From contig JAAMXP010003561.1 in assembly GCA_019693395.1 (NCBI GenBank), positions 1 to 27,712 on the forward strand: DNA of 27,712 nt, in the 5' to 3' direction. This document shows, one piece after another, positions 1 to 19,700 of this stretch. A program made the translations under genes and the position numbers. The notes beneath the pieces were generated by a model that had not been told where the DNA came from, searched no databases, and saw nothing but the letters and a program-made list of their open reading frames with translations. The first letter of the stretch is position 1. Each line of letters opens with the position of its first letter. Source of the DNA: Ettlia oleoabundans. Its lineage: Eukaryota > Chlorophyta > Chlorophyceae > Chlamydomonadales.

Positions 1-3000
1 CCCCATCACCATCAGCCCCACCACACACAACGCTCTCCCTACACACCCAAACCATACCAACCAAACACCATCAACCCACCTGCTAATCAAGGCCTCCCGT
101 GGGCCGGGCAGCAGCGCCGCCGCCGCCACTAGCAGCCCCGCCGCTGCTGCCACAAGGCCTGTATTAGCGGTGATGCGAGCCATTGCCCCTGTGAGAGCCG
201 CCTGCTGAGACTGCCCCACCGAGTTGGGGTTGAGGGAGGCTGCCAGGTTGGCTGCAAGCAGCTTAGCACGTTCAGCTGGGCTAATTGCGTCATTCTGCGA
301 AGAAAGAATGTATGGCGGTAAGAGATCAATTAGACAGACGGATTAGAGAATGGCATTGCGGGGAAAGATTGAATATGACAAGGAGTAGGCAAGGAGGGCG
401 TTGGCATGATGCAAAGGAAGACACCAACAACGGTGGCAGCAGCGGCAAGCTGAGAGTGGGCAGGACCGGCAGGAGGGCAGGACGGAAGGAGAGAGTGGGA
501 GAAGATGGGTGCAGTTACAGGCAACAATATCAGGTAGGTGGGACAGAGAGATGCGAGTAAAGCCCAGTGAGGGATAGCAACGCTCTTTAAGCGGGCTTGC
601 ACATGCAGATGCATAGGAGTAGACTTGAGTTCCAATTTGCCACTGGCTGCTGGCTGATGCTTGGGGCAAACATGAACGTGCGTCAGCAAAGTCTCACCTT
701 GGCTTTGTCTGCAGCCTCCGCAGCAGGCTCCTGCTTTGCCGCCGCCGGGGCTTGCTGGCTCTCCTTAGCCTCCTCCTGAACCGAAGGGTTGTACAAAACA
801 GGAAGGCAGCGGCAGTTTTACACACACACGAACCAGGCAGGCGGTGGCGAATCGAGGCTTCCATCAAGGCTTTTGCGTCCCGCAAAGTCCAGCGGTACAG
901 ACGAGCTGCTCTGACGTGCTGTGAACCAGGATCACCGAAATTTAATACAGGGATCACCGAGATATAATTTAGAGACCAAGGGTTTTGCGTCCCGCAACAT
1001 CCATCGGTACAGACGAGCTGTTGTAAGTTGTTGTGAACTAGGATCACCGACATTTGATGGATGAGGAGAAGCAGGAAGGGGGCACAATGCATGTGCATGA
1101 CAGTAGCAGGCCAATAGCAGCTGATGCACTCCACGCCAAGAGGTCCACCGACAGTACACCAAACACATGCACAACGCAAAGGGCACGCTTTTGCCCAGCT
1201 TGCAACTCGATTTGTTGCAAATTGACAGCTTGCAGTCCGCGAAAATTACTGCAAGGAGGAAAGGGATGCGGCCCTCACCTTTGCTGCTGGCATGGGCACT
1301 GGTGCGGGCTTAGAGGGTGCTGCGGCAGCAAGGGGGGCAGGCTTGGGCGCCCCCGCCTGCAGGCGTAGCACGCAATGGCTGTGTCAGTGTAATCGACGCG
1401 ATAACAAAGTTGGTAGTCCTGACTGCTGAAACTTGGCTTCGACACTTTACCTGGTAGGGCAAAGCCACCAAACATGGCGTAAGGAATTTTTTCCCCACGC
1501 CGCAGATAATAAAACGCCCACTACATGTTTGCAGCGTTGCAGCCCAGCGAACAACAGAGTCGTGCAGGGATCATCAGGCACTAATCCCTTCCTTCCCCAC
1601 CCAAGCCCAGAGTCAACCCCTTTCCTGCGATGCCATCCAGGCCCCATATTAGCAATTTGTGGCATGCACCTACAGTACTGCATTTGCCGACATTGCCAAC
1701 CGCACCTTGGCTGATGCTGCAGGCGGGGCCTGTGCGCTCTTCTCAGCTGCAGCAGGCTTTGGTGCCGCCTCTGCCTTCTCCGCCGCGGCTGGCTCGCTCT
1801 TCTTTGCCTGCTCGGCCTGCATTCCACCAGCGGGAGCAGGGCGATGGTTGAGGGGCATGATGTCAGCGAAGCCCTCCAATTAATTTCAGAAGAAAGTGCA
1901 GGTTAGTACTAGGAGACAGCTTGACGAGACATTGCAAGGGTCGTTTATTGTAAGAGCTACAAAAAGCATCGCTCCATGCGTACTGTTAAGGAAAACATCA
2001 GCGGCACCCATCAGGCGTGCTTGCCGGTCACCTTTGGTGCTGCAGGCTTAGGCTCGGGTTTAGCAGGCGGTGCCTTGTCCTCAGCCTTTGCGGCAGCAGG
2101 GGCCGGCTCAGGCTTCTTGTCTTCCACCTGAACAACGGTCATAGGTCTAGCAGCAGTGTGAGCTATATTCCAAATGTTAAAATGGGAATGGGAGAATCGG
2201 ATGCAGGGAAAAAAACCTATGGGCATATGGAATCAGGTACATGTACTATCCTTTGGTCTCCAATCAAACATTCAAGCGACGCATACAGCGGTACCAGTGT
2301 GGCCTATACACAAAGCACACTGCCAAGCTGGTTTAAGGCACCTATTGCTTGTTCAAAAATGACAGCTATTCAACCTACCTTGGGTGCGGGGGCCTTTTTC
2401 TCGGGCGCAGCAGCCGGGGGTGCCTCGCTCTTCTTTGCCTCAGCTGGCTGCAAATGGGTGGAGGTGGGTGCAGGGAAAGTACAAGGTTGTACAGCGGGCA
2501 ATATGGAGACTGATGGCAGGCGTGTGTGCCGGCCCGAGTGAGGGGGTCAGCAGTGCTGGCCCTCTCACCTTAGGCTGGGCAGGATCAGCAGGGGCAGTGG
2601 CAGTGGCAGCAGGAGCAGCAGCCGTTTTGGAATCAGCCGCGGCAGGGGCAGCAGCCGTGGGTGCATCAGCCGTGGCAGGAGCAGCAGCCGATTTTGCATC
2701 GGCCGTGGCAGGGGCAGCAGCCGTGGGTGCATCAGCCGTGGCAGGGGCAGCAGCCGTTTTTGCATCAGCCGCGGCAGGGGCAGCAGCCGTGGGTGCATCA
2801 GCCGTGGCAGGGGCAGCAGGTGCAGCCGTCTTAGCCGTGGATACCTCGGCCTTAGCCTCAGACTTTGCCGCCGCCTTGGGCTCAGACTTAGAGGGTGCAG
2901 ATTCAGGCTTATCGTCAGGTTTGGCCGCAGCCTTTGGCTCAGCCTTGCGAGGTACAGAGTCCTCAGCCTTAGGCTCAGCCTTTGCCTTAGGCTCAGCCTT

Positions 3001-6000
3001 AGAAACAGCAGGCTCCTCGGCCTTAGCATCAGGCTTTGCAGCCGCTTTTGGGTCAGCCTTAGGAGGCGCAGGTGCGGCAGGCAGGGCGGGCGGCGGCACG
3101 GATTCTTTGGCAGTAGGGGCAGATGGCGGCGCTGGCGGCGGTGCCGTCTTATCAGCTGCGGCAGGCGGCGGTGTCACCTTGGCAGCCGGCACCTCAGCCT
3201 TGGGGGGTTCGGCCTTGGGTGCAGGGGGTGGCGGTGGGGGTGGCACTTCAGCCTTTGGGGGCGCAGGGGCAGCAGGCTCTGCAAGCTGAACAGAATCAGC
3301 CTGCACACAGTGCGGATATGGGCAAGGGAACAAGTTGGCTGAATACGTCTTGTTGGAATGTGCAGCAATGCTACCGCCACTGCGCCAAACCAACCACACA
3401 GTAGCAAAACTGCACACCACCATGCCTCTTCGCTTCATATCTGCCTGCTGGACATGATGTAGCAAACGGACAATTTGTGACATACTGACAAGCGCTGTTG
3501 AAGATGCATGGCAAACGGGTCATGCCCCGCACCTGTGGGGGTGCTGGCTGCGTGAGGCTGGGCAGCTGCAGCGCTGAAGGCAGCATGCGGAGCTTATCCT
3601 TGGGCACCAGCCCATCGGGTGCCAAAAAAACCCCGGCTGAGAGTCCAAGCAGCGCCAAGGATGCTGCCGCCACGCCAGACTGCAGTACAAAGCAGATAAC
3701 AGGGGAATCCGCCCGTAGGCTCAAACACTGACTGAAAACCCAATAGGACAGATGAGAACTGGAGTGCTCTTTGGCATAAATAATAAATAATCGGCTGCGA
3801 CCAATAATGCTTTTCAAGCAGGGGCAAGCTAGAACAACAACACATAGGATGCTGCCAGGCTGCACAAACTGGCAAGCTGCAGGCATCAGCTGTGCCTGCC
3901 TGAGAGCCTGAGGCAGCGGCTGCAATTATGCCCACAAACAGCGCTGCGGCTGGACTCATCAACCCTATTGTGCAGCCTACTGTTGCAGCAAGATCAAAAA
4001 GGAAGGCTCAAAAAGGCAGAGTTCAGGAAGGCCAAATAAGGCAGTGCGTAAACATACAAAGGCTTAGCACTCACCCAGCTGCCCTTGCCCTCGGCCTGGC
4101 CGCCTTGTTTGAAGAATGAGCTGGCCTGCAGAAGCAGGGGTGATGCATGCACACGCCTTCAAGCCTCATTACACGCAGAAGGAGGCAACGTTTGAGGTCG
4201 CGTCCGCTGCGACTAACATTGCGGCGCAGGGGCACTAAACACACATGCGTTAGGCGATCACGGACAGATAACAATTGCACAACAAATCAAAGCACCAGGG
4301 CAACTTATGCACGCACCGTTCCCTTTCCGCCGCTGCCGCCTGCGGTGGGGGCCGCCTGCTGGCCGGTGCGCTTGCGCACCAAGAACTCCAGCTGCTCTGG
4401 GGAGCAATTAGCGGCTTCTTGCGGCGTGATCAGCCCATCCTTGACACATGCCTGGATGGTGGCTTCCAGAGAAGCAAGCAGCTCCTCCATTGGCCGCATA
4501 CCCTCATTGGAAAGCGAGGAGGAAGAAAGGGAGAGGTTGCCGCCTGCTGCTGCGCCACCGGAGCTGCTGCCGGCGCGCGCTGGCGTGGGCGTGCGGCTGG
4601 TCGGGCGCCGCGCGGGGCTGCGGCTGCGGCCGCGGGCGGGCTGCTGTGGGGGGGCCGAACTGGTGTTCCGCCGCTTGCGCTCCAGGAACGCCTGCTGCTC
4701 GGGGGAAAGGCCTGCCATTGGCTGCGAGCTGCTGGCAGAAGGTGGGGTGGAGGAGCTAGCATCGCGCTGCTTGCGTTCCAGAAAAGCTAGCTGTTCGGGT
4801 GAGAGGCCTGCAGGGGCACCAGCCGTCGATGTCACACGGCCGGTGGGCCTGGGAGCGGGGCTCCGGCCCCTAGTGGGTGCTGCGGGAACAGGCGAAGTGC
4901 TTGCCTCCCGCTTTCGCTCAAGGAATGCCTGCTGCTCAGGGGAAAGGCCGGCCGGGCTGGCTGCCGACGGTGCGGGACCGCGGCTGCTGGGGCGGGGTGC
5001 GGGGCTGCGGCTGCGGCCCCGGCTGGGAGGGGCGGAAGCGGGAGAAGCGCTTGTCTCGCGGCGCTTGCGCTCTAGGAACGCCTGCTGCTCGGGCGACAGG
5101 CCTCGCATGGTTGCAGAGCTGCTGGCTGTGGCCAGGGGTGGGGGAGAGGAGCTGGAGCTCTCCTGCTTGCGCTCCAGGAATGCCAGCTGCTCAGGGGACA
5201 GGCCTGCTGCGCTGCTGCCAGCCGGCGGCGAAGTGGGTGTGCGGCTGCTGGGACGGGGCGCGGGGCTGCGGCTGCGGCCCCTTGTGGGAGCGGATGGTGT
5301 TGGGGAGGCGCTTGTTTCGGTGCGCTTACGTTCCAAGAAAGCCCGCTGCTCAGCAGTTAGCCCAGCGGAGGCTGAGCTTTGAGAGGCTGCCCGTGAAGGC
5401 GGCGAGGGTGTGCGGCTGCTGGGGCGGGGGGAGAGGCTGCGGCCCCTGCTGGGTGCTGCATGCGCCGGCGAGGCGCTTGCCTCCCGCCGCTTGCGCTCCA
5501 AGAAAGCCTGCTGCTCAGGGGAGAGGCCTCGAGGTGCGGCGGAGCCAGTGACCACGTCAGGGCGGTCGAGCACGTGGCCAACTGACGACGAGCGTTTGCG
5601 CATCAGGAAGTCCAGCTGTTCTGGGGTGTATTTGGCTGCTTCCTCCTTGCTCATCGTGCCGTTTGTAGCCCCCTGGGCGCTAACCTGCAGCAGCAAGGCA
5701 CGGGATGCTGCCTTTGGCAGTGATCCAGCATGGGGCAGTGCCACCGGGTACTCGAGAGGCGGCCACCCTAGTTGGCACCTCTAGCTTGCGCGGGGGCTCT
5801 AATGCGCCCAGGATGCTATCTGGGAACGGTTAGGCTGATTGGCGGGAGGCCAAGGAGGACTACCACAACAGCCACGAACGGCGTGGAAGCAACAGCAATT
5901 GCGTCAGGCCCCGTGCTGCGGCTGTTCCACTTGCAGGCATCACACATTGTTTCACCAACACACCCGGATGCCGCATGGCCTCCCAAGAGCGCTTCCCCCT

Positions 6001-6056
6001 GCCTGTCGCAGGACTCGGGGCGGCTGCCCCAGCGGAACGCCAACGGAGCGCTGCAT
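1..6056 (-). CDS. Plastid-targeted multivalent SPEQ-motif repeat protein with membrane segments (3' end beyond window)
   Basis: Function unknown. Exons read on the minus strand: 6056-5964, 5684-4317, 4125-4075, 3679-3533, 3300-2569, 2447-2379, 2127-2032, 1816-1706, 1356-1279, 775-698 and 294-80 (donor GTGGGT; the gene continues past base 1). All ten complete introns are phase 0 and the frame stays open for about 1012 residues. Residues 1-34 (MQRSVGVPLGQ..., ending IRVSA) look like an algal chloroplast transit peptide with a V-x-A cleavage motif. Residues 51-470 carry nine copies of (S/T)(P/A)EQxxFLxRK(R/Q) in Ser/Arg/Pro linkers. A hydrophobic helix follows at about 507-526 (ASLALLGLSAGVFLAP), then a Pro/Ala/Lys/Glu-rich spacer (about 554-941) and a second helix at 987-1004 (GLVAAAAGLLVAAAALLP). 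The start is the ATG at 6056, chosen because its short exon joins in phase and completes the transit peptide. Exon 1 and the GTGACC donor after 2032 are the weakest calls. The family is not recognised; a scaffold, tether or linker role is inference. Confidence 0.72.
871..1055. repeat. Diverged 112-bp tandem duplication inside an intron
   Basis: Two copies start at 871 and 983 with TTTTGCGTCCCGCAA, share CGGTACAGACGAGCTG, and end near GGATCACCGA (copies near 932-939 and 1041-1050, with a third GGATCACCGA at 951-960). The copies lie in the intron between the exons at 1356-1279 and 775-698 of the plastid repeat protein. No coding sense is apparent. Confidence 0.75.
2605..2825 (-). repeat. Coding minisatellite, ADAPTAAAPATADAKTAAAP-type unit
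   Basis: Within exon 5 of the plastid repeat protein a unit of about 60 bases (20 residues, alternating ADAPTAAAPA and ADAKTAAAPA halves) is repeated in tandem with few changes. It lengthens the Ala/Pro spacer between the two membrane segments. Near-identity of the copies suggests recent expansion and likely length polymorphism. Confidence 0.8.
4368..5627 (-). repeat. Nine-copy degenerate protein repeat, core SPEQxAFLERKR
   Basis: The second exon of the plastid repeat protein encodes nine 12-residue cores at 5592-5627, 5487-5522, 5322-5357, 5163-5198, 5061-5096, 4908-4943, 4767-4802, 4671-4706 and 4368-4403. Start-to-start distances are 35, 55, 53, 34, 51, 47, 32 and 101 residues. Most long linkers carry a basic RGRSRSP or RGRSP block; two of the three short linkers are Ser/Pro-rich with almost no Arg, and the first short one differs. 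The first and last copies (TPEQLDFLMRKR, SPEQLEFLVRKR) differ from the internal ones and are preceded by EEAA and QEAA. The cores look like short amphipathic helices (Leu/Phe on one face, Glu-Arg-Lys at the end). Confidence 0.9.
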
Positions 6057-6974
6057 TGTTGCGGCAGCGATGATCACTCGTAGCGTCGTATGGATGCAAT
6101 GATCGGGCACATTACCGTTGCTGCACCCGCGATGGTAGGCTTTCCAGCGAGTGAACGTTGAGCTGGCACCTGGCGCAAGGGAGGACAGGAAATTCTCCTG
6201 GCGCGCTTAGTTCGTCACTGGCAACAGTCGAAACGGCGTGATTCCGTGGCAGGTCTACATATGAAGGTTCAGGGGCATGGCACAACTTGGTTGCACGGCG
6301 GCATCAAGTTGCACCTCCACCGGTGGAGGTGCAACACCTCCACCGGTGGAGCTCTCTTGCGTGCCTTGCAAGTTGCAAGCCTGAAGCAATGAGGCTTGAC
6401 AATGTTCTGACGTTTGGTAAGCTCGAGGTATCCATGAGCTGTTAGATGTCCAGGCACAAGTCTGGTCTCACGTGGAGGACTCGACAGGATCACTGCCAGC
6501 TGATCTCGTTGTTCTAGCCTAGTTCTAGCTGAAAGAGATATCCTGATGGTTGGGATATGTCTTGCATCCTCGTTGAAAGTTCCATACGACCGCAGGCACC
6601 AAGCAGTAAGTACCTGCCAATTGCTTGCCTCAAGTTAGGTCGTGAGCAGCATGCGGTAGCGTTACGAAGAGCGCACCTGACCATGCACCAGTTGAAGAGC
6701 TGGCTATTGGCAACAGCCAATCATATGATATGTTTGGCCGTTCTCAAGTGTATCAGCGCCCGCTTAGGAATGCCCGCCGAATGGCAATCCCCGTGGCAGG
6801 TTACTTAACGCCACGCCACGCTATGGGCGGCACGGCGGGGCTGTAGATCGGCGTCGTAACAGGTGTCGGCCCTGCTACGCCATCCCAGCGTCTCTTGTGT
6901 CCGTGATTGGCAACACAAAAGCGCTTTAACCCGCCGACCACAATCGAAACACAGTCGAAAACGGACCCAACACT
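6057..6974. promoter_or_regulatory. Divergent intergenic region between the repeat protein and the LysM gene
   Basis: About 0.9 kb separates the start codons of the leftward plastid repeat gene and the rightward LysM gene, so both promoters and 5' UTRs should lie here. No exon-like reading with good splice signals was found on either strand. The one clear structure is the pair of palindromes at 6308-6351. No convincing TATA box was identified. Confidence 0.5.
6308..6351. repeat. Two adjacent perfect palindromes sharing CTCCACCGGTGGAG
   Basis: Bases 6308-6335 form a perfect 28-bp palindrome: the half-site GTTGCACCTCCACC is followed directly by its reverse complement. Two bases later, 6338-6351 repeats the inner 14 bases, CTCCACCGGTGGAG, again a perfect palindrome. 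This could be a binding site for a dimeric regulator, a cruciform or hairpin, or a relic of a small inverted-repeat element. The position midway between divergent genes favours a regulatory reading, but that is inference. Confidence 0.85.
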
Positions 6975-16734: not shown

Positions 16735-19700
16735 CTACGCGGAAGCGTTGAGCAGCTTGCATGCGGGTCGATGCTGCTTCCAATCAGCCTGGCTGCAGGC
16801 CTCACTGCAGTACCGCACCACCCTGCAGCCTCCGCATTTGCGGCCTTTAGGAGCCGCCCCCTCGCTGTCACCCACCAGGCTGCTGCACCGGGGGTTGGCG
16901 CACTGCAGCAGCGCCAGCGCTTTGGCGCGCCGCACCGCCAGCTGCTCTGCTTCTGTGCTAAGGGGCTGCCTGCGGGCTGGGCCATTACCAGCAGCGCCCG
17001 TTTGCTCCCCTTGTGGCTGCGCCTCCACCACCGATTGGAAGCCAAGCAAGGAACTGAAGTTGTCCTGGGAAATGCCAGACAGCAAACCGTCCACACAGTG
17101 CCGCACTACGACCCAGTGCTGCGTGTCGATGCGCAGGTGGGCCACCAGCTGACGCAGCAGATCACAGCGCAGTCTGAAGCCATTCGTGACCTGCAGAGAC
17201 AGCATGCATGGCAGCAAAAGGATTTGGTTGCCCAGGCGTCATGATATAAGCAGCTGAGGCACTTAATCTCAAGGGGAAGCCTTATGGTTCGTGCCTTTTG
17301 TCATTAAGTATCACTGCTTCAGAATCTATCGAACAGGGCCAGCACAGCTTGCAAAGCATAATACCCACTGCCAAACCAAACACGGGCGTAGTGGTGCACA
17401 CACCTTTCAACACTAGCTGCATGGGCAAATAGCCACAACTAGCAGCAGCAATGGCTGGTGCGCAGCTGCCGCAGATATCACTAACAGGGGCCTTGAGCTT
17501 ACTCACATCTCGCGATTGTTGGCCACCCTGCCTGATGGCATTCCCCAACGCTACACCCGCGAGGCCCAGCGATTGCAGCAGGTCGCCATGCTGTGCTAAC
17601 CTGGGGACCACAGCAGGCTCCAGCTCCACTGCCAAGCACAGCATGTCGAGTGCTGCCTTTCCCACAGAAAACCTGGGTCATCGTCGAATGCATATACAGT
17701 GTTTACGTTTACGAACTGCACAGCAACCAAGTACATCGGCATTTGTGTAAGGGGTCAGGTATGGAAGGACAAGAAAGGGAGCACACGAGGTCGGGCGTGG
17801 AAGGACAAGTAGTCAGGCCGCACATGGTCCGTGCAAAACATCATGGCAGCTCTGCTGGTTTTAGCATGCAGGTTGAGGATGAGGGTGAGGACAATCATTC
17901 AACAAGCATACGACAGTCATGCTTGGCCAACTGAGGACAAGCATACGACAGTCATGCTTGGCCAGCTGGGACAAGAATAAAACAAGCATACAACAAGCAT
18001 ACAACAGTCAGGCTTGGCCAGTTACCCATGCGATGGCGTGCTGTGGCCATTCATGCTCCAGCATGCCACGGCATAGCGGGGCACACTGTAATTATGCCTG
18101 CCACAGCATGCCACACGGTCAGAACAACTTTCCAGCTGCCATCAGCATGCGAGCGGCAGCCTGCCATAAGGTCAGCACAACATCGCAGTTGTCACAGGCA
18201 TGGGCTCAATACCAACCCTGCCACTCCGTCACTGTAGCATGGCAGCTGCCCAAAGCATTAGCTCTTTTTGGCTTAAATACCAGCCCACCCACCTCCAAGG
18301 CTGAGCACGCCACTTCAGCCAGCACCGCCACTGCATCCAGGCCGCCAGCAAGCCCCACGCTGTGGTTGCCCAGCAGCAGACGCCACAGCGCGCCAAGCGA
18401 GTCTTTCTGGAGCAACATCGTCACCAACATGCACCTGCTGTCGTCCAGCTGCTGCCGCTCCTCATTCCCGAGCAACACGCGAGGCAGGGCCGAGAGGGAG
18501 GTGAGGTACAGCAGCAGGCAACACTCCAGCCGCCTGCAGAAAAACAAACTCCAGGAGTTGCATTTCCCGTTTGCTTTCCATGGCCTGCATTTCCCGTGAT
18601 AGAAGTTAACTCCTACGTTACCAGAACTAGCACCTCGAGAGAGATGAAAGGCCTTGCAGCGTTTGCTCTCACAGAGACAGTAGCAACCAGGGGAAAAAGT
18701 TCACGGCAACGCTGCCCACAATATATAGATTACGAGGTGACACACAAGGCAGGCAAGCACATGACAACAGCGAGCAAGCCGAGTGGGCCGGTGGCAGGTG
18801 AGCAACCTGTATGCCAGATGGGACAAGGGAGTTATTTGTTATGAGCGGTAAGGAGCACACGAGGCAGCACCCACACACCTGGAGCACAACTCCTGTTCAC
18901 TCTCCGGTACCGGTGCTAGCATGTCGCTATTGCACCGGTACGCATGCAGCAATGCAGACTCCAAGCACAGGCCGAGGTCTGGCAACATGCGCTTGTCTGC
19001 AAGCACTTGCTGCCCGTGCGTCGAGCTCTCTGCCCGGGTGGCTGGTTCTTGGTTAGCTGTGCTGCGTGATGACTGGCGTGACCCAGAACCCCCACTGGTT
19101 GGTGATGGAGAAGGGGGCAGCTGAGGAGAAAGGTACGGGGCCACCAACTGGACGTATCGGCGGTGGTGGTCAGGGCATGGAAGCTGGCAGCGGCGGTTTC
19201 TGGAAAAGTTGGTATCAATGCCGGAAAGTTGAGCAGGCGATGCGCTAGGGTTGTGCCGAGATGGACACTAGTACAGCAAAAGCTGCTGGATGAGTGTCCT
19301 CGCCCCGCTGCGCTAGTACCGCAGAAAGGCCGCCAGCTGCCGCCACCGCAGCCCCCGCAGTGCGGCAGCCGCCTGGCGCCACACCCTGTGATGGCTGGTG
19401 CGGCAAAAGCGGAGCTAGTCGCATAAAGTCCTCCGCTGCCCGCCATGCTGCCGTCACACAGTCGCTGCCGCCGCTGGGGCAGTTAGCACGGTTTGCAGCA
19501 GCTGACAGCCTGCCACAGCACTCCGCCCATTTGTTAAGCATGGTATCCCATTCGGCCTGGAGCTCCCGCCAGCACAGCGTGCCAAAGTTGGCGCCGCTGT
19601 GGCTGTCAGTACTTTGATTGAATCCGTCTGCTGCAGTGCCAGCTGCGTCTGCGCCTGCGGCTGTAGTGGTGCTGCCTGCCGCGCCTGCCACCTCTGAAGC

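Follow-up and report, generated by a model that had tools for sequence, protein, structure and literature searches.

On the minus strand of contig JAAMXP010003561.1 of the green alga Ettlia oleoabundans (positions 1 to 27,712; this whole stretch of 27,712 nucleotides is referred to below as the window, and is contig C957 of a 32.9 Mb draft assembly of 1230 contigs), we identified a gene whose product is probably a pyrenoid protein that is imported into the chloroplast, anchored in a membrane and able to bind Rubisco at many sites. Behind a transit-peptide-like start, it carries nine copies of the CSLinker motif, the short helix by which the CsLinker protein of Chlorella sorokiniana contacts the Rubisco large subunit (RbcL), and these are followed by predicted membrane helices. 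The best reading is that of a functional counterpart of Chlamydomonas RBMP1 and RBMP2, i.e. a tether between Rubisco and a membrane. Import, membrane insertion, the choice of membrane and tethering are all things that we infer from this predicted architecture.

The identity of the motif and its site on Rubisco are shown by sequence together with the solved structure of a relative. Pfam family PF24429 ("CSLinker motif") matched nine stretches of the protein (278.6 bits against a cut-off of 27, E 7.5e-85), and the best PDB match was 8q05_Z, the α3-α4 part of CsLinker (E 3.2e-8), the other of the two matches obtained up to E 10 being HeliScrew4 (0.076). The first-pass annotation of this DNA had not recognised the motif from any described family; that it belongs to none is thereby ruled out: the family is PF24429 and the complex is the cryo-electron microscopy (cryo-EM) structure 8q05. 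The same annotation was right that the motif is unlike the Rubisco-binding motif of Chlamydomonas, the CsLinker version binding the large and not the small subunit. In the cryo-EM complex, the CsLinker helix packs against the N-terminal region of RbcL: Phe173 fits into a pocket of Ile87 and Tyr97, Arg176 and Lys177 form salt bridges with Glu51 and Asp86, respectively, and Gln170 may contribute hydrogen bonds; the contact residues named are Gln170, Phe173, Leu174/Met240, Arg176 and Lys177 (PMC11570498). These map to the Q, F, L, R and K of the core, and all five are kept in every one of the nine window copies. On the Rubisco side, the RbcL encoded on contig C1228 is identical to 8q04_A, the sequence of which is that in 8q05, at 475 of 475 positions. 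Glu51, Asp86, Ile87, Glu93 and Tyr97 are all present; position 95 is Asn and position 96 Gln, so that the "Gln95" of the paper may be a numbering offset.

The contact residues were also followed in 17 homologous proteins (P0001-P0016 from a first search, P0017 from a later one that gave four matches). A loose motif anchor matched 91 times in these proteins, with all five contact residues present in 60; of the remaining 31 matches, all but two (one in P0001, one in P0004) are motif-like, these 29 having Arg, Gln, Ser, Ala or His where the Lys would be. The same anchor gave 13 matches in the window protein, the four beyond the nine being chance matches in its Ala-rich tail. Together, these comparisons of sequence make a strong case for Rubisco binding by the window protein.

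All nine copies lie in exon 2 (4317-5684, minus strand), which encodes 456 residues of a basic, disordered repeat region (20% Ser, 15% Ala, 14% Pro and 12% Arg in a 370-residue slice; computed isoelectric point 11.5 for model residues 33-500, which reach slightly beyond the exon). The core has the form [Y/L/C][S/T][P/A]EQxxFLxRK. Start-to-start spacings are 35, 55, 53, 34, 51, 47, 32 and 101 residues, in agreement with the nine cores 32-101 residues apart described in the first pass. Among 20,000 shuffles of the same residues, the pattern Q..F[LM].RK, found nine times in exon 2, occurred once in six and twice in none. In order along the protein and all on the minus strand, the copies are motif 1 (5595-5630, YTPEQLDFLMRK), motif 2 (5490-5525, LSPEQQAFLERK), motif 3 (5325-5360, LTAEQRAFLERK), motif 4 (5166-5201, LSPEQLAFLERK), motifs 5 and 6 (5064-5099 and 4911-4946, both LSPEQQAFLERK), motif 7 (4770-4805, LSPEQLAFLERK), motif 8 (4674-4709, LSPEQQAFLERK) and motif 9 (4371-4406, CSPEQLEFLVRK). 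Motifs 2-8 are the seven window matches of a PF24429 search of the genome, from the list of which motifs 1 and 9 are absent.

These two outer copies belong to an extended type, EAAxx[S/T]xxQLxFLxRKR (SKEEAAKYTPEQLDFLMRKR in motif 1, KDGLITPQEAANCSPEQLEFLVRKRT in motif 9), which recurs once on contig C792 and twice on contig C180; an alignment of the five extended copies has ten invariant columns. Against PF24429, with its cut-off of 27, motif 9 alone scores 16.7 bits and the C792 copy alone 12.9, and the two C180 copies together reach 37. Such scores and the differing flanks of the first and last copies are what could be expected if the motifs had drifted to another partner, an explanation that we nevertheless regard as very improbable given the five contact residues kept throughout and the identity of RbcL.

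An AlphaFold2 model of exon 2, computed with seven homologues, has a mean predicted local distance difference test score (pLDDT) of 61.7 and predicts all nine motifs to be helical, the linkers between them being of low confidence (pLDDT below 50 in 200 of 456 residues). Motif 9 lies within a small predicted three-helix unit that is modelled more confidently (pLDDT 88-94 over model residues 401-440). The spacing of 32-101 residues falls inside the 20-120 residues used for linkers in the CsLinker paper (PMC11570498), and, with the AlphaFold2 model, gives the protein the profile sought by a FLIPPer-type criterion: mostly disordered, with structured repeats 20-120 residues apart. The earlier proposal of a disordered, multivalent plastid linker or tether, comparable to EPYC1 or to anchored pyrenoid proteins, thus gains support from the identity of its helices with that of CsLinker (PMC11570498).

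The gene model begins with exon 1 (5964-6056, minus strand), which holds the start codon and a transit-peptide-like sequence, MQRSVGVPLGQPPRVLRQAGGSALGRPCGIR, and is followed by a GTGTGT donor. Read across into exon 2, the N-terminus is MQRSVGVPLGQPPRVLRQAGGSALGRPCGIR followed by VSA, as in the transit-like start ending IRVSA noted previously; exons 1 and 2 account exactly for the span 4317-6056 of the first-pass annotation, in which the strand was unstated. Downstream, predicted exon 3 (4075-4125) encodes ASSFFKQGGQAEGKGSW between a CAG acceptor and a GTGAGT donor in phase 0, and predicted exon 4 (3533-3679) encodes a first hydrophobic helix, SGVAAASLALLGLSAGVFLA, then PDGLVPKDKLRMLPSALQLPS; the helix, GVAAASLALLGLSAGVFLA, has a Kyte-Doolittle 19-residue mean of 2.01. 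An Ala/Pro/Lys/Glu-rich tail begins in predicted exon 5 (2569-3300) and continues through predicted exons 6-10 (2447-2379, 2127-2032, 1816-1706, 1356-1279 and 775-698; phase 0, GT-AG), and predicted exon 11 (80-294) brings a second hydrophobic helix, TGLVAAAAGLLVAAAALLPGP (helix GLVAAAAGLLVAAAALLPG, mean 2.05). All of these are on the minus strand. Both means lie above 1.6, the usual threshold for membrane helices. The hydrophobic helix reported earlier is therefore present, at 3679-3533 and so outside the span then given, with a second at 294-80; the membrane anchors read into it are plausible, on the basis of predicted splicing and hydropathy. The tail between the helices contains 37% Ala, 22% Pro and 13% Lys in a 389-residue slice. 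A Pfam scan of seven downstream stretches on the side of this gene gave no match, and no family besides PF24429 passed its cut-off in the window exons scanned. Each of the ten introns has GT-AG borders and lies in phase 0, and retention would introduce an in-frame stop in nine of them. Joined, the eleven exons encode 1012 residues up to the contig end, beyond which the gene appears to run on. This truncation, in a draft of so many contigs, is what might suggest an assembly or gene-model artefact; with exon 2 a single open frame holding nine diverged copies of a real family, we give that explanation hardly any credence.

A more serious alternative, which we consider unlikely, is that the gene encodes a second soluble linker of the CsLinker kind, the hydrophobic exons being part of a different gene or isoform. 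Exon 2 stays open to a TAA stop at 4305 and, with intron 2 kept or under another model, the product would end ...GGKGTVRA; the homologues P0001 and P0009 likewise end soon after their last motif, and soluble linkers are encoded on contig C4 and probably on contig C653 of the same genome. Against this, a GTGCGT donor precedes the stop at 4305 and the later exons remain in phase 0 throughout the model. We hold the membrane anchor of the window protein with moderate confidence.

Several points weigh against a membrane-anchored Rubisco-binding protein. Firstly, the joining of exons 2, 3 and 4 is a prediction from GT-AG borders and phase 0, and retention of intron 2 would end the protein three residues on. 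Secondly, the helices are Ala-rich and judged by hydropathy alone, and the contig stops before the gene does. Thirdly, the first and last motif copies are of the extended type, the last being below the Pfam cut-off by itself, and binding by the window peptides themselves is deduced from likeness to CsLinker. Finally, no protein with the whole architecture of the window gene was recovered in three homologue searches (16, 0 and 4 matches).

Taking the membrane-anchored protein as the preferred reading, each short helix could make a weak contact with the N-terminal region of RbcL, in the fashion of CsLinker, and a flexible basic chain bearing nine such helices would hold the Rubisco condensate. 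The chain itself would be kept in a membrane by one or two of the helices further downstream; the pyrenoid-crossing thylakoid is the most likely such membrane, and the protein would therefore tie matrix to membrane. It is from nine Rubisco-binding peptides placed ahead of predicted anchors that a tie between pyrenoid and membrane becomes probable. The scanned tail stretches carry no recognised domain, which leaves room for a protein anchored elsewhere (in the envelope or in thylakoids generally), or for one that recruits single Rubiscos and not the condensate. We judge this to be quite improbable, since a protein with nine motifs spaced as in a linker is more likely to enter the condensate and a two-motif CsLinker fragment binds about 100 times tighter than a one-motif fragment (PMC11570498).

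We next compared the window gene with CsLinker, for which pyrenoid localisation has been shown. The two share the motif, its contact residues, disordered Ser/Arg/Pro spacers, a transit-like start and similar spacing; CsLinker is a matrix linker, whereas the window gene adds predicted membrane helices and an Ala/Pro/Lys tail. P0011 of C. sorokiniana, which is probably CsLinker or its strain variant, has five PF24429 stretches compared with nine (two of them extended) in the window gene. Orthology of the window gene to CsLinker was considered and rejected in favour of a soluble linker on C4 (L020; five motif copies by pattern). Three C4 copies score 73.4, 71.9 and 64.8 bits against PF24429, compared with at most 59.3 for window copies, and P0011 aligned to this genome gives 108 bits for C4, 90 for contig C266 and 85 for the window. 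The likelier counterpart of CsLinker is thus C4, to judge from these scores; its sequence differs from the CsLinker fragment of 8q05, so that this alga is probably related to the source of that fragment but of another strain.

Genome-wide, PF24429 exceeded its cut-off 22 times on five contigs (four matches on C4, three on C653, seven in the window, seven on C266 and one on C180), and none of 14 control genomes matched. C653 (L022) seems to encode another soluble linker, truncated where the contig stops; its motifs come after a transit-like start of their own, MQASLSLTSRASF, which in turn lies beyond a set of methyltransferase exons. Because the C653 motifs have this start of their own, we doubt the methyltransferase-motif fusion of Chlorella vulgaris P0008, which may be a gene-model error. 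On C266 (L021; 3877-6640, minus strand), CBM20 exons precede eight CSLinker motifs by pattern; this gene is the counterpart of Chlorella variabilis P0001 (374 bits) and a candidate SAGA-like linker of starch to Rubisco. A second such combination, on C792 (L023; 3850-6790, plus strand), joins CBM20 (68 bits over two joined exons) to an extended CSLinker-like motif, beyond which come a coiled-coil-like stretch, recognised by eye, and a hydrophobic helix. Exon joining on C792, apparently one gene, and on C180 was read by eye and is predicted. The C792 helix aligns with the second window helix at a score of 53 (equalled in none of 2000 shuffles) and with the first at 45 (15 of 2000); the two window helices have a weak likeness to each other (37, equalled in 112 of 2000). 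The end of C413 (L055) and C52 (L025; 4035-5021) are probably halves of one gene with CBM20 and motifs (YPPEQLAFLQRK and YSPEQLAFLRRAGKL), like P0016.

On C180 (L024; 8014-9048, minus strand), an epimerase-like C-terminus, HFFASADKAKRVLGWQPQ...DKDVDFSADDRILAAAK, which we take to be that of CSP41 proteins, is followed by two extended CSLinker motifs. Its epimerase-like exons have weak matches to Pfam GDP_Man_Dehyd (E 0.06) and to epimerases in the PDB (best E 0.032), so that the kinship is distant by either measure, and the gene probably encodes a CSP41-like epimerase with the motif. On the same contig, the plus strand at 5338-5604 encodes a sequence related to the N-terminal portion of P0014 (63 bits), and P0014 may be a fused model of such a gene and a CSLinker-motif gene. 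Rhodanese-like exons occur on C692 and C999; no rhodanese combined with the motif was found in this genome, the sequence read for it being the 1.5 kb upstream of the C692 exon, which is motif-free. Profile searches of the genome for Bestrophin (PF01062) and BSD2 (PF25436) gave no match, and gave none in the controls either, hence they are uninformative.

CsLinker homologues have been reported in closely related species only, in a study whose co-immunoprecipitation with RbcL enriched 360 proteins (PMC11570498). Among the proteins recovered here, P0001, P0010 and P0015 carry both CBM20 and the motif over the Pfam cut-offs, and P0016 carries CBM20 with a motif below it (22.4 vs 27). Rhodanese is combined with CSLinker motifs in the Micractinium proteins P0006 (Pfam) and P0007 (from a precomputed table), and Micractinium P0017 has PsbP, motifs and rhodanese, possibly as a fused gene model. 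P0012, listed in EukProt as Prasinococcus capsulatus cf. (Prasinodermophyta), combines the cysteine-rich domain of BSD2 (38 bits; PDB BSD2 at E 4e-4) with four copies of the motif (84 bits); the motif may thus reach the Prasinodermophyta, fused to the Rubisco chaperone BSD2, with contamination a possible source. No orthologue with the window architecture, 557-1771 residues long, was found by the shared-word method used. As the searches need shared 5-residue words, and two of the three scored the top word-sharing candidates only, a missing orthologue is weak evidence.

Around the gene, a self-complementary sequence, CCTCCACCGGTGGAG, stands in two copies at 6310-6352, upstream of the gene start. 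Of ten neighbouring open reading frames scanned with Pfam, nine had no match, and the one at 16738-17238 on the minus strand proved to be an exon for a MYND finger (PF01753, 35 bits), unrelated to the motif gene.

In Chlamydomonas, a motif [D/N]W[R/K]XX[L/I/V/A] is reported from EPYC1, SAGA1, SAGA2, RBMP1, RBMP2 and the putative epimerase CSP41A (PMC8320531), and it binds the Rubisco small subunit (PMC10473226). SAGA1 and SAGA2 combine it with starch-binding domains (PMC10473226); RBMP2 carries six copies of it together with a rhodanese domain and transmembrane helices (PMC13345187), and RBMP1 and RBMP2 have been proposed as ties between matrix and tubules (PMC10473226, PMC13345187). Like the window gene, these two place Rubisco-binding motifs on a predicted membrane protein, but their motif is unrelated to that of the window and theirs binds the small subunit. 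Similarly, EPYC1, which cross-links Rubisco (PMC10473226), shares disordered repeats and spaced short helices with the window protein and differs from it in motif and in its small-subunit site; the two linkers, CsLinker and EPYC1, are considered to have arisen independently (PMC11570498). SAGA1 and MITH1 also join membrane and Rubisco matrix, as the window protein is proposed to do, but MITH1 has no detectable Rubisco-binding motif and works through SAGA1, hence it is not a parallel (PMC11649565). The domain combinations of both lineages thus pair linker with linker, CBM20 with CBM20, membrane protein with membrane protein, and perhaps CSP41 with CSP41 and rhodanese with rhodanese, the last resting on the Micractinium proteins only, because of the search of this genome described above.

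While the motif itself was already known, the window gene presents it in a predicted membrane-tether architecture. No account of a membrane, CBM20 or CSP41 protein that carries the CSLinker motif came up in the literature searched, which consists of openly available titles, abstract openings and passages and extends to a 2026 review (PMC13159521) and to PMC13167743. The window gene is accordingly a candidate pyrenoid membrane tether. Its practical interest stems from the call, in the CsLinker paper, for parts that bind the large subunit, possibly from Chlorella (PMC11570498), which are wanted because small-subunit binding ties pyrenoid engineering to replacement of the plant RbcS; the window protein and its CBM20 relatives are candidates for such parts. 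More broadly, we lean, if only slightly, towards the view that Chlorella-type algae build the whole pyrenoid with one large-subunit-binding motif, in parallel with the unrelated small-subunit motif of Chlamydomonas, and that the two lineages have each joined their motif to similar clients, namely disordered linkers, starch-binding CBM20 proteins, an epimerase resembling CSP41, membrane proteins such as the product of the window gene and, in Micractinium, rhodanese proteins. The parallel is suggestive of a pyrenoid toolkit shared by convergence.

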